Positions 1-6,119 of a stretch of 64,000 nt of DNA are shown piece after piece. The number at the start of each line of letters is the position of its first letter. Positions within the stretch are counted from its first letter, which is position 1. The notes under the pieces were generated by a model that was not told the origin of the DNA, did not search any database, and worked only from the letters and a program-made list of their open reading frames with translations. The translations under genes and the position numbers were made by a program. The stretch lies in contig NZ_JAUSYQ010000002.1 of assembly GCF_030816965.1 (NCBI RefSeq), positions 10,158,001-10,222,000 on the forward strand, in the 5' to 3' direction. Origin of the DNA: Streptomyces canus (GTDB taxonomy: Bacteria; Actinomycetota; Actinomycetes; Streptomycetales; Streptomycetaceae).

Positions 1-281
1 ACGACGGGGGCGATCCCGATGGTGCTCGTGGACGCGGCGACGAAGGCCGCCCGCTCGACCGCGCCGATACGGCCCACCGGATCCGGTGAGGCGCCGGGCG
101 GCAGCACGCCGTCGTCCAGGGTGATCAGGGTGAACCCGGCGTTCTCGGCGATGGCGGCGACCTGGGCCACGCGGCGCGGGGTGAGCAGCTGATCGGGGGA
201 GTGGGCGGCGCGGCGCCAGGCCGCGGGGTGGGCGCCGTCGCCGTCGATCTCGACGGCGAGGTGCAGGGCGGGGCCGGACAT
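1..281 (-). CDS. LLM-class flavin-dependent monooxygenase, N-terminal part (runs off left edge)
   Basis: Only the first 93 residues are in the window; the rest lies beyond base 1. The start (MSGPALHLAVEIDGDGAHP) has AAGGAA a few bases upstream. The segment AAIAENAGFTLITLDDG followed by GAVERAAFVAASTSTIGIAPVV is the usual N-terminal beta/alpha unit of luciferase-like (LLM) flavin monooxygenases, close to the NtaA/SnaA/DszA and sulfonate-desulfurising subfamilies. The substrate cannot be told from this part. A Cys-containing leader peptide (365-481) directly precedes it on the same strand, which argues for induction under sulfur limitation and a role in releasing sulfite from an organosulfur compound. 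Confidence 0.8.
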   Translation of the reverse strand, partial: MSGPALHLAVEIDGDGAHPAAWRRAAHSPDQLLTPRRVAQVAAIAENAGFTLITLDDGVLPPGASPDPVGRIGAVERAAFVAASTSTIGIAPV

Positions 282-364
282 GGGGTTCCTTCCGGGAACA
301 CGAAAGCACGAGAACGCGCGGCCACTGGCCACGACGAGACAGCCGACGGGACGGCCGGCAGAGG

Positions 365-481
365 TCAGGCGTGCACGGAAGGACAGACGGCGGAGGAGGT
401 GCGGCAGTAGTCGACGTGCCGCCGGGTGATGAGCCGCGTACCAGTGCACGCACCGCGCGGTGCCGCGCCCAGTACGTGCAT
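365..481 (-). CDS. sulfur-responsive leader peptide (38 aa)
   Basis: A 38-codon ORF with ATG at 481 and a GGAGG ribosome site at 487-491. Its core reads TRRHVDYCRTSSAVCPS and it holds three Cys codons. Streptomyces genomes carry many short leader peptides of the form RRHIDL-R-SSA-C before sulfur assimilation and sulfonate genes, where ribosome stalling at Cys codons under cysteine shortage is thought to allow downstream expression. It ends 83 nt before the LLM monooxygenase at 281, which it presumably controls in cis. I did not find a convincing antiterminator hairpin, so the exact mechanism is inferred. Confidence 0.8.
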   Translation of the reverse strand: MHVLGAAPRGACTGTRLITRRHVDYCRTSSAVCPSVHA

Positions 482-514
482 CGAAGCCTCCAGCTGTCAG
501 GAACTTTCCCGTTC

Positions 515-545
515 AACGTACGTCGTTCGCCCCGGCGAGTGTCAA
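515..545 (-). promoter_or_regulatory. promoter for the minus-strand leader peptide/LLM unit
   Basis: On the minus strand there is TTGACA (540-545), a 19-bp spacer and TACGTT (515-520), 34 bp upstream of the leader ATG at 481. This fits a housekeeping sigma promoter, though the spacer is slightly long. It lies back to back with the plus-strand promoter at 590-618, so the two sulfur units are divergent. Confidence 0.5.
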
Positions 546-589
546 GGTCGCACATGGCGGAAGGGCGTCTCACGCGCTGGGACGCATGG

Positions 590-618
590 TGGACGCAACT
601 TACCGGTCGTGCTTTGAT
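590..618 (+). promoter_or_regulatory. promoter for plus-strand leader peptide, probably leaderless transcript
   Basis: TGGACG (590-595), 17-bp spacer, TTTGAT (613-618). The ATG at 625 lies only 6 nt after the -10 element, so the leader peptide would be translated from the first transcribed bases. Leaderless starts are common for Streptomyces attenuator peptides. Confidence 0.4.
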
Positions 619-624
619 CCGGCC

Positions 625-714
625 ATGGAGACCACTGGCCCGGCACGCACGGTGCTGCTCGACCCGTTCTGGGTGAGCCGCCGCGCCGACCAGTTCGACC
701 AGGTCTGTTGCTGA
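625..714 (+). CDS. Cys-Cys-ending leader peptide (29 aa)
   Basis: ATG at 625 encodes 29 residues ending WVSRRADQFDQVCC and a stop. The tandem Cys codons at the very end, after an (S/T)RR-A-D motif, resemble the Ms5788A-type Cys-rich leaders and the other two leaders in this window (365-481 and 6042-6119), but the sequence is more degenerate. No Shine-Dalgarno is visible, in line with a leaderless mRNA. It precedes the chimeric ORF at 844 and the MFS gene, which it would put under cysteine-dependent attenuation. Coding function rests on motif and position only. Confidence 0.6.
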   Translation: METTGPARTVLLDPFWVSRRADQFDQVCC

Positions 715-737
715 TCGCCGTTCGACGGCTCGCGATC
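713..737 (+). terminator. possible attenuator hairpin abutting the Cys-Cys leader
   Basis: Immediately after the tandem Cys codons, GCCGT (717-721) pairs with ACGGC (725-729) around a TCG loop, flanked by GATC at 713-716 and 734-737. A pyrimidine-rich run follows. A hairpin touching the end of the leader ORF is the layout expected if a ribosome stalled on Cys codons melts or masks it. The fold is inferred by eye. Confidence 0.35.
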
Positions 738-843: not shown

Positions 844-1368
844 ATGGCCCAGTCCACAGCCCTGCCTGTCATCGACATCTCCCGCTCCCGTGCCCCGGAC
901 GCGGACTGTGACGCCTTTCTCGCCGAACTCCGCTCCACCGCCCACGAGGTGGACTTCTTCCATGCCTGCGGTACCGGCGCGACCGACGACCCGGCGAACG
1001 CGGGGCCGAGCGGCCAGAACGCCGAGTTCACCGCCATCGACACCGGCGCCACTGTCGACGTACGTCTCGTGCTGGAGCCGACCAGCCCCGATATCCTCCG
1101 CCTCGCGAAGAACGCCACCTACGACCTGTTCCGGCGCTTCGCGAACGACGACCGCACCGTCACCGGCACGCCCCGGCAGATCGCCGACCCCCTCGAGGAG
1201 TGGTTCCACGGCCGCGCCGCCGGCGGCTTCATCGCCAACTTTCCGTACCTGCCGGGCAGCCCGGACGCCTTCGCCGAGGTGCGCCGCCGCAGCCTGTTCC
1301 GCACCCACTGCACGGGCCGCGCACTGCGCGATCACCTGGGCCTGCCGCGGCCGTCCCGGCGGGCGTAG
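844..1368 (+). pseudogene. chimeric remnant: 2OG-Fe(II) oxygenase start joined to LLM monooxygenase end
   Basis: An open frame of 174 codons with a good AAGGAA ribosome site, but it is made of two unrelated families. Residues 1-42 (LPVIDISRSR, FLAELRSTAHEV, FFHACG) match the N-terminus of isopenicillin-N-synthase-like 2-oxoglutarate/Fe(II) oxygenases, minus the HxD...H iron site. From about residue 90 (DLFRRFANDDRTVTGTPRQIADPLEEWFHGRAA) to the end it matches the C-terminus of NtaA/SnaA-type flavin monooxygenases; the intact protein at 10001 ends in the same way (GTPEQVADTIIAWFEGGAADGF...LREHYGLPVP). Neither enzyme would be active. The best reading is a deletion that removed the 3' half of an oxygenase gene and the 5' two thirds of an LLM gene while keeping the frame. 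The leader peptide at 625 would once have controlled the oxygenase. Confidence 0.7.
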
Positions 1369-2834
1369 TGCTCCCGGGAGAGGACCGCGCCGCACGGCGA
1401 GTGCTGCTGGTGTGCATGGCGGCGGGCGCGACGACCCTGCTGGACCAGGCTGTCCTCAACATCGCGATCCCGAGCATGCGGCAATCGCTCGGGGCCGGCG
1501 GGGCGGACGTCCAGTGGATCGTGGCCGGGTACTCGCTGGCCTTCGGCCTGGCCCTCGTCCCCGGTGGCAGCCTCGGTGACCTGCACGGGCGCAAGCGTCT
1601 CTTCATGGCCGGGATGGCGGCCTTCCTGCTGGCCGGGGTGACGGCTGCGACCGGAGGTGAGCCGGGGACCCTGATCGGTGCCCGGCTGGTCCAGGGTGCT
1701 GCGGCCGGGCTCGTCAACTCGCAGGTGATCGGCACCATTCAGGATGTCTTCCACGGGCCGGCGCGCGGGCGTGCGCTTGGCCTCTACGCGGTCACCGGCG
1801 GCGTGGCCACGGCCCTCGGCCCGCCACTCGGTGGTGCGCTCGTCGCCGGACTCGGCCCCGAGGCGGGTTGGCGGTGCTGCCTGTTGCTGAGCACTCCGTG
1901 CGCCGTACTCACCCTGACGCTCGCGGCCCGTCGGTTGCCTCCGCCCAGGCGCACCGCCCTCAACTCCCGGCTGGACGTCCTCGGCCTCGGTCTGCTCTGC
2001 GGCTGCACGCTGACGCTGATGGTGCCCTTCATCCGCACCCCGGACGGCGGGGGAGAGGCACTTTTGTGGGGCACCGCGGCAGGCGCACTGGCAGCCGTCT
2101 TCGCTGTGCACCAGCGCCTGCGGATGCGGCGAGGCCGTCAGCCGCTGGTGCACCCCGCGCTGACCTCTTCGAAGCCGTACGTGCTGGGCACAGCCGTCGC
2201 CATGGCCCAGTTCGGCTCCTCACTGGCAGCGTTCCTCGTGCTCACCGTCTTCCTGCAGAGCGGCCTCGGTCTGTCCGCTCTGCTCACCGCGGCGGTCGCC
2301 CTCCCCGGGGCGGTCGGGATGGGCATCTCCTCGGCCCTCGCCTGGCGGCTCGTGCGACGGATCGGACCGCGTACGGTGACCGTCGGCCTGCTCCTGGGCA
2401 TCAGTGCCGCCCTGACGGGAGCGGCGGTCGCGCTCTGCGTGCCGACGGAGGTGCTGCCGATGGCACTGGCCGGGACGCAGTTGATGTCCGGCACCGCCGG
2501 AGGGCTCACCGTCTCGCCCAACCAGACCCAGGTGCTGCAGCATGCGCCGGCCGAGGCCGCGGGAGTGGGCGGCGGCGTCCTGCAGATGGCCCAGCGCATC
2601 GCCGCGGCCATCTGCCTCAGCGCCGTCCCGGCGGTCTATCTGCACGCCGCCTCCGGACACCCGGGAGACGGTCAACCCCGGACCGGGTACGCGCTGGCCT
2701 CCTGTGTCTGCGCGGGCCTGCTCGCCGTGGCCCTGATGCTGTCCTTGCGACGCGGCACCGCCCCGTCGTCTCGCCCGTCGGCGCACCGCGCCGGCGCGGT
2801 TCCCCGCTCCAAGGAATCGACGGAATCGACCTGA
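1368..2834 (+). CDS. MFS drug/proton antiporter, DHA2-like
   Basis: 488 residues from a GTG at 1368 that overlaps the stop of the preceding ORF (TAGTG); an ATG at 1416 is the main alternative. About 14 hydrophobic segments are seen, with the MFS signature between TM2 and TM3 (GSLGDLHGRKRLFMAG) and an antiporter-type segment after TM4 (RALGLYAVTGGVATALGPPLGG). Length and layout fit the DHA2 (14-TMS) family of multidrug and antibiotic exporters. Placement directly behind the oxygenase/LLM remnant puts it in the same sulfur-controlled transcript, so it may export a by-product of organosulfur breakdown. The substrate is unknown. Confidence 0.85.
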   Translation: MLPGEDRAARRVLLVCMAAGATTLLDQAVLNIAIPSMRQSLGAGGADVQWIVAGYSLAFGLALVPGGSLGDLHGRKRLFMAGMAAFLLAGVTAATGGEPGTLIGARLVQGAAAGLVNSQVIGTIQDVFHGPARGRALGLYAVTGGVATALGPPLGGALVAGLGPEAGWRCCLLLSTPCAVLTLTLAARRLPPPRRTALNSRLDVLGLGLLCGCTLTLMVPFIRTPDGGGEALLWGTAAGALAAVFAVHQRLRMRRGRQPLVHPALTSSKPYVLGTAVAMAQFGSSLAAFLVLTVFLQSGLGLSALLTAAVALPGAVGMGISSALAWRLVRRIGPRTVTVGLLLGISAALTGAAVALCVPTEVLPMALAGTQLMSGTAGGLTVSPNQTQVLQHAPAEAAGVGGGVLQMAQRIAAAICLSAVPAVYLHAASGHPGDGQPRTGYALASCVCAGLLAVALMLSLRRGTAPSSRPSAHRAGAVPRSKESTEST

Positions 2835-6041: not shown

Positions 6042-6119
6042 ATGAACCCGCGCGTGGACCTCACTCGGCGGCGCCACATCGATCTGGCGCACGTCTCCAG
6101 CGCGTTTTGTTGTCGCTGA
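6042..6119 (+). CDS. sulfur-responsive leader peptide (25 aa)
   Basis: 25 codons ending LTRRRHIDLAHVSSAFCCR. The RRRHIDL...SSA-CC pattern is the signature of the Streptomyces sulfur leader peptides, here with two adjacent Cys codons just before the stop. It precedes the dioxygenase-sulfonate transporter operon by 271 nt and is the clearest of the three leaders in the window. The likely role is to couple operon transcription to cysteine supply through ribosome stalling at the Cys codons. Confidence 0.85.
   Translation: MNPRVDLTRRRHIDLAHVSSAFCCR

Follow-up and report, generated by a model that had tools for sequence, protein, structure and literature searches.

Do two short open reading frames (ORFs) lying back to back in the genome of Streptomyces canus both act as leader peptides that sense cysteine, and do they together form a two-way sulfur switch, as an earlier note on this DNA proposed? 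We addressed this question in a stretch of 64,000 nucleotides (hereafter the window, meaning the whole stretch of DNA analysed) and in related loci of other actinobacterial genomes.

Two divergent leader reading frames

Both ORFs were present, at 365-481 on the minus strand and at 625-714 on the plus strand, and judging from sequence neither looks like a chance ORF. Each has the form of a cysteine-responsive leader or attenuator, namely a short conserved ORF before a gene with a conserved Cys codon near its end. The description of the locus as two divergent Cys leaders was right, and the arrangement recurs in other loci. The features of the locus are as follows.

1..281, minus: luciferase-like flavin monooxygenase gene, start part, running off the window (profile search)
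287..293, minus: Shine-Dalgarno sequence GGAAGGA of the monooxygenase gene downstream of the minus leader (sequence, fold)
365..481, minus: leader ORF of NF042934 type, 38 aa, MHVLGAAPRGACTGTRLITRRHVDYCRTSSAVCPSVHA, ATG at 481 with GGAGG 5 nt upstream (ORF list, NCBIfam search)
376..383, minus: predicted anti-Shine-Dalgarno UCCUUCCG, beginning with the U at the third position of the UGU codon (fold)
383..385, minus: terminal conserved Cys codon UGU of the minus leader (sequence)
590..618, plus: conserved promoter-like block TGGACG-17-TTTGAT, 6 nt upstream of ATG 625 (orthologue reading)
625..714, plus: leader ORF of the FW family, 29 aa, METTGPARTVLLDPFWVSRRADQFDQVCC (orthologues, conservation)
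706..708, plus: invariant Cys codon UGU of the plus leader (codon reading)
717..729, plus: 5-pair inverted repeat, partly conserved, 3' of the plus-leader stop codon (fold, seven loci; weak)
844..1368, plus: chimeric remnant gene, oxygenase N-terminus and monooxygenase C-terminus, 174 aa (Pfam/NCBIfam matches below curated cut-offs)
1419..2834, plus: MFS transporter gene with a provisional start, directly after the remnant gene (profile search)

The two transcripts had been assigned divergent promoters less than 50 bp apart. This spacing is not established, because a strict sigma-70 scan of both strands came back empty; the two start codons are separated by 143 bp. The conserved promoter-like block was sought on the plus side only. 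No known RNA family was found at the locus, where two matches scored far below their gathering scores.

The minus leader resembles NF042934, an NCBIfam model named "putative leader peptide". In the alignment, residues 16-33 of the leader cover model positions 2-19 of 19, including the terminal Cys. The match scored 26.2 bits (E 4.3e-6), and 25.5 bits in a genome-wide search, against a cut-off of 27 bits. As it missed this threshold, we call the leader NF042934-like rather than a formal member. The source genome holds 14 NF042934 matches at E ≤ 0.01, including the minus leader and the leader at 6060-6110, and the motif is also kept at the orthologous locus of genome G111. Three flavin monooxygenase genes of the Bac_luciferase type lie downstream of the minus leader, the first beginning in the window and the other two outside it. 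The leader at 6060-6110, on the plus strand, is a second one of NF042934 type in the window (LTRRRHIDLAHVSSAFC), likewise with a UGU end. NF042934 leaders of the genus labelled g4 (L177, L179) contain stretches of consecutive Cys codons in which both UGU and UGC occur, while most others have a single terminal Cys.

The plus leader belongs to a separate conserved family

The plus-strand leader had been described as degenerate but possibly a distinct variant of its class. We found the first part of this description to be wrong and the second to be supported: the leader conforms closely to a conserved family distinct from NF042934, one that has a motif and gene contexts of its own. Searches against Pfam (E ≤ 1) and NCBIfam (E ≤ 10) returned nothing for it, and three of its relatives likewise lacked an NCBIfam match at E ≤ 10. 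The candidate explanation that it is a degenerate NF042934 copy was ruled out, since the model matched neither the leader nor the three relatives searched.

A six-frame search of 149 other genomes of the genus returned six orthologues that were 79-97% identical, with 28 of 29 residues shared with G111. Across the seven orthologous loci, mean nucleotide identity was 0.89 in the ORF, 0.77 in the 50 nt upstream, and 0.32-0.47 in the flanks. Variable sites numbered 7, 5, and 12 at codon positions 1, 2, and 3, and at the sequence level these alignments show coding selection on the ORF. The upstream block, read by eye, comprised TGGACG in 7/7 loci, 17 nt, TTTGAT in 6/7, and then 6-7 nt to the ATG. 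The spacing from TTTGAT to ATG suggests that the plus-leader transcript is leaderless.

Alignment of 23 chosen sequences from five families gave the motif L-[DE]-x-F-W-x-x-R-[RQ]-x-x-x-F-D-x-x-C, in which F, W, R, D, and C are invariant, and we refer to this family as FW. Its members have one invariant Cys and an optional second one, and conservation stops at the Cys codon. FW matches occurred in 131 of 150 genomes of the genus (source included) at E ≤ 0.5, the weakest of which may be chance. A class-wide search at E ≤ 0.01 found the family in 59/394 genomes, made up of 32 of the 40 listed same-genus genomes and 27 others; three of the latter gave doubtful weak matches (G370, G377, G443; two with internal stops) and are not counted as members. 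At E ≤ 0.001, a phylum-wide search matched 15/396 genomes, and the two matches outside the class (G764, G774) were partial, covering 14-17 positions. The family was found in 41 of 148 genomes of genus g4 and in two of five of the family labelled f28. Most of the Streptomyces genomes sampled thus carry the family, which also occurs in four further families of actinobacteria. A 40-aa member of one subgroup, type B, matched 110 database proteins, of which the named ones are hypothetical or uncharacterized and the named organisms are Streptomyces. The family seems to be without any name so far.

FW leaders precede diverse genes, many of them sulfur-related

In the loci read, type B leaders (...DLEPFWPSRQHHDFDRVCCRA...) lie upstream of a gene for a regulator that has a Trans_reg_C (OmpR-type) domain. 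This domain was Pfam-tested for the source-genome copy in L002, and L083 and L095 also have Trans_reg_C. The source-genome type B copy lies between the regulator gene and a gene that, from its sequence, we take to be glnII. Elsewhere, Pfam searches identified genes downstream of FW leaders as intact 2OG-Fe(II) oxygenases (L036, L037), cysteine dioxygenase together with a rhodanese (L094), cysteine dioxygenase (also L085), TauE/SafE (L088, with six further f4 loci looking alike), an SBP_bac_5 transporter protein (L086), a flavin monooxygenase in second place (L079), and carbonic anhydrase (L048). Judged by such gene assignments, many FW contexts appear sulfur-related but not all, as MFS, carbonic anhydrase, and the regulator illustrate. 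The FW leaders of g4 before TauE/SafE genes (L088-L092, L097, L098) have a GTG start and a ribosome site and do not look leaderless.

In the window itself, the remnant at 844-1368 matched DIOX_N (E 0.0069) and FMN_nitrolo (E 8e-11), both below curated cut-offs. Its G111 orthologue (L035), read by eye, has a degraded look too. As the first plus-strand gene is a chimeric remnant, the window plus leader may now serve the MFS gene or nothing. The proposal of a two-way sulfur switch thus stands in part: the flavin monooxygenases on the minus side and the intact plus-side oxygenases in L036 and L037 fit it, but the short remnant in the window does not.

The back-to-back arrangement was not peculiar to the window. 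Using a regular expression, we found an NF042934-type motif on the opposite strand within 700 bp in 8 of the 21 FW loci outside the type B and TauE groups. These were six of the seven type A loci (source genome, G111, G014, G049, G068, G084) and both f28 loci, and in one of the latter (L094) the cysteine dioxygenase is in view. The same motif was found on the opposite strand in 0/54 type B contexts and 0/33 TauE contexts. Another regulatory element, the SAM-IV riboswitch, lies on the divergent side of the FW leader in G068, G125, and G084 (L038 7978-8091, L039 7775-7884, and L040 8025-8137), and two of these three loci also have the NF042934-type motif. NF042934 leaders face each other elsewhere as well (G169:C251, G216:C172, G1022:C19). 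Since the pairing recurs, it is a recurrent way to place two divergent units under leader control.

The terminal cysteine codon is UGU in both families

Codon choice at the conserved Cys was strikingly uniform. The invariant Cys codon of FW leaders was UGU in 108/108 distinct contexts, which hold 96 distinct cores (43 type B, 32 TauE, 21 other) and include related sequences that are not independent. By contrast, codon choice at Leu, Pro, Arg, and His differs among these cores. The terminal Cys of NF042934 leaders was UGU in 27/27 distinct matches from the source genome and 12 relatives (30 loci, three identical dropped) and in 29/29 from a class-wide sample (30 loci with 16 family labels, one identical dropped). 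Combined, this gives 55/55 terminal codons, one leader being common to both sets; here too related sequences are not independent, and only the best-scoring matches became loci (60, one in both sets, of at least 126 matches). Inner Cys codons of these same matches were UGC in 18/18 and 33/38 cases, so that UGU accounted for 5/55 with the shared one removed. In long ORFs, UGU made up 69 of 581 Cys codons (12%) in the genus loci and 5 of 35 in the g4 loci. The bases 3' of the terminal UGU vary in NF042934 leaders.

The searches were performed at the protein level and are blind to codons. Bacteria have a single tRNA-Cys(GCA), which reads UGU by wobble pairing only. Consequently, differential charging of isoacceptors cannot explain the UGU rule, but slower wobble decoding can. 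Of the earlier suggestion that each leader senses cysteine through its own codons, the codon part gains support from the invariant UGU in these sequences, and the sensing part is something that we infer.

Shine-Dalgarno masking is predicted for some leaders

A hairpin had been proposed at 713-737, touching the end of the plus leader. An inverted repeat does exist near there, but the region 700-850 folds no better than shuffled sequences (z 0.23, 112/200 shuffles as good), leaving the hairpin weakly supported. Over the seven loci the 5-pair stem formed in 85.7% of cells, compared with 51.4% for the best slid control; one change occurred on both sides of the stem, and 72/500 shuffles reached the same.

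In the best fold of the minus leader (z -2.22, 3/200 shuffles as good), the predicted partner of UCCUUCCG (383-376) is the region around the monooxygenase Shine-Dalgarno, and the U and G of the terminal UGU pair next to the monooxygenase start codon. We then simulated a ribosome stalled at the UGU by masking its footprint and computing Shine-Dalgarno accessibility relative to control masks. For the minus leader of the window, accessibility rose from 0.01 to 0.15 (rank 0.12), with one control mask reaching 0.17. For the plus leader it stayed at 0.34, which is not the behaviour of a translational attenuator, and its anti-Shine-Dalgarno rank was 0.79.

We applied the simulation to the sets that remained after dropping leaders without a start or with fewer than three control masks (46 NF042934, 7 type A, 11 type B, 19 TauE, and 8 other FW leaders). 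The stall mask exceeded all control masks in 13/19 TauE leaders, which come from one genus and are not independent, in 10/46 NF042934-type leaders, and in 2/8 other FW leaders, as well as in 1/7 type A and 2/11 type B leaders. Accessibility rose from 0.02 to 0.23 in the L094 leader, one of the other FW set, and NF042934 leaders had a mean rank of 0.40. Hence, Shine-Dalgarno release is not general, given the null result for the plus leader, the few type A and type B leaders affected, and this mean rank.

Anti-Shine-Dalgarno sequences adjoining the terminal UGU were in modest excess among NF042934-type leaders, with 12/46 at rank ≤ 0.1 where about 5 were expected and a mean rank of 0.385. This test started from 54 items with the terminal codon located, the window leader included, of which the eight without a start were dropped. 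Type A leaders had none to speak of (1/7). Taken as predictions, these folds make Shine-Dalgarno masking a reasonable account of some leaders; for the plus leader the modelling does not support it.

We also considered a four-arm alternative structure for type B leaders, which gained no clear support; its arms are nearly invariant. In 48 leaders whose relatedness was not controlled, arms 3:4 paired slightly better than swapped partners (16/2000 shuffles as low) and arms 2:3 paired worse (1981/2000). Type B leaders had no convincing covariation, and RNAalifold showed little.

A model of attenuation at UGU and its alternatives

We favor attenuation in which a shortage of cysteine makes ribosomes pause at the terminal UGU of leaders from two families placed back to back, and give this reading a probability of roughly 55%. 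Each of two divergent transcripts would begin with a short ORF carrying a conserved UGU Cys codon at or near its end. When charged Cys-tRNA is scarce, a ribosome translating the leader would pause at the wobble-read UGU, perhaps aided by the conserved nascent peptide. For the minus leader, a ribosome halted in this way would sit on the anti-Shine-Dalgarno, which starts inside the UGU, and the monooxygenase would be translated; with sufficient cysteine the ribosome would leave and the Shine-Dalgarno would be sequestered. For the plus leader we assume the same signal, and the output step would be one not visible in the RNA. In this model we infer that the leaders are translated, that ribosomes pause on them, that cysteine is what is sensed, and which way regulation runs. 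Against this direction, a cysteine dioxygenase target could mean induction by excess cysteine, which is the opposite sign, or else organosulfur scavenging.

Some of the same observations can be read in other ways. The FW peptide could be a true arrest peptide, whose conserved residues stall the ribosome from the exit tunnel, with free cysteine or another sulfur compound as the ligand that sets the stall and UGU only tuning the timing. Its five invariant residues at fixed spacing and its single Cys in place of a Cys run would suit such a peptide, as would cysteine dioxygenase among its targets. Yet the terminal UGU rule is common to the unrelated NF042934 peptides and therefore points to the codon, and we regard peptide-driven arrest as unlikely. 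We are similarly doubtful of Rho-dependent transcription attenuation, wherein translation or pausing in the leader would control Rho access to the spacer without any masking of the Shine-Dalgarno. The plus strand of 250-900 contains no intrinsic terminator, the plus leader gave no Shine-Dalgarno release in the masking simulation, and Rho has been proposed for mycobacterial cys leaders (PMC1262725). On the other hand, the pairing predicted at the minus leader and the release in most tested TauE leaders argue for masking instead. For the plus leader in particular, either Rho-dependent attenuation or an arrest peptide may apply.

Two further readings concern whether the plus leader has a regulatory role at all. 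It might be a leftover in this strain that controls nothing after decay of the oxygenase gene. The chimeric 174-aa ORF of the window and the degraded look of its G111 counterpart, set against the intact oxygenases of L036 and L037, are what decay would leave, but the leader and its promoter-like block are intact, nearly every residue is as in G111, and an MFS gene follows directly; we consider this somewhat improbable. That the FW peptide is instead a small functional protein and no leader is highly improbable: its amino acids are strongly conserved, but a strict codon choice at one residue, unrelated downstream genes, and conservation that ends at the Cys codon all speak against it.

Returning to pausing at UGU, the favored reading admits a broader and more speculative form. 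Actinobacteria might possess one general sulfur-sensing device, in which either of two unrelated conserved peptides holds the ribosome at a wobble-read UGU. With one cysteine tRNA there is no isoacceptor charging to report, so the choice of codon would have to work by way of decoding speed. One possible basis is a modification at position 37 of tRNA-Cys that contains sulfur, and the device would then sense, besides cysteine, the sulfur state of the tRNA. FW would be a new, unannotated branch, sometimes paired with the known one. We think it improbable that all of this holds. If FW leaders are regulatory, a peptide family found in most sampled Streptomyces and four other actinobacterial families went unnamed, and its contexts would bring cysteine dioxygenase into a single sulfur response together with TauE/SafE transport, the flavin and 2OG oxygenases, and an uncharacterised regulator of OmpR type. 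That two unrelated leader families follow the UGU rule is a telling clue to the working of cysteine leaders.

Comparison with known leader systems

The closest annotated relatives are the leaders of NF042934, a "cis_reg_atten" model listed with the Cys-rich leaders NF042936 (Ms4527A) and NF042933 (Ms5788A). The minus leader aligns to nearly the whole NF042934 model, and both window leaders end on a conserved UGU-encoded Cys, as do the NF042934 leaders read. In contrast, the plus leader and its relatives match none of these three models and have another motif.

Cysteine-responsive attenuation in M. smegmatis is credited to Canestrari et al. 2020 in the parts consulted of two papers citing it (PMC9031893, PMC13236596). 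As described there, the mycobacterial polycysteine ORFs are short, leaderless, Cys-ending, and placed before operons, and the plus leader is probably leaderless too. They differ from the FW family, which lacks a Cys run and whose conserved part is the peptide before the Cys. Candidate Cys leaders without obvious terminators were noted in 2005 at cys operons of Mycobacterium, Propionibacterium, and Bifidobacterium (PMC1262725, in part). They resemble the window leaders in having Cys codons near the stop codon and no clear terminator, but the genes behind them are cys or cbs, and none is from Streptomyces in the text consulted for this comparison. Excerpts of later work describe Cys-rich small ORFs upstream of mycobacterial genes in 2015 (PMC4633059) and, by ribosome profiling, cysteine codons that lower the G/C skew of such ORFs (PMC9094748). 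The portion consulted of an S. lividans reannotation gives eight leaders, none assigned to cysteine (PMC8079986); the metL leader presented there as a methionine leader has three Cys near its end.

We found no mention of the FW family or its contexts, of its pairing with NF042934-type leaders, or of the UGU rule in the portions of the literature searched, most subscription papers lying outside the reach of the search. All four appear to be new.

In the TnaC arrest peptide, free tryptophan sets the stall. Peptides of this type keep certain aromatic and charged residues unchanged at set distances from their final sense codons. The FW peptide has a similar layout, and any stalling by it would be a hypothetical parallel.
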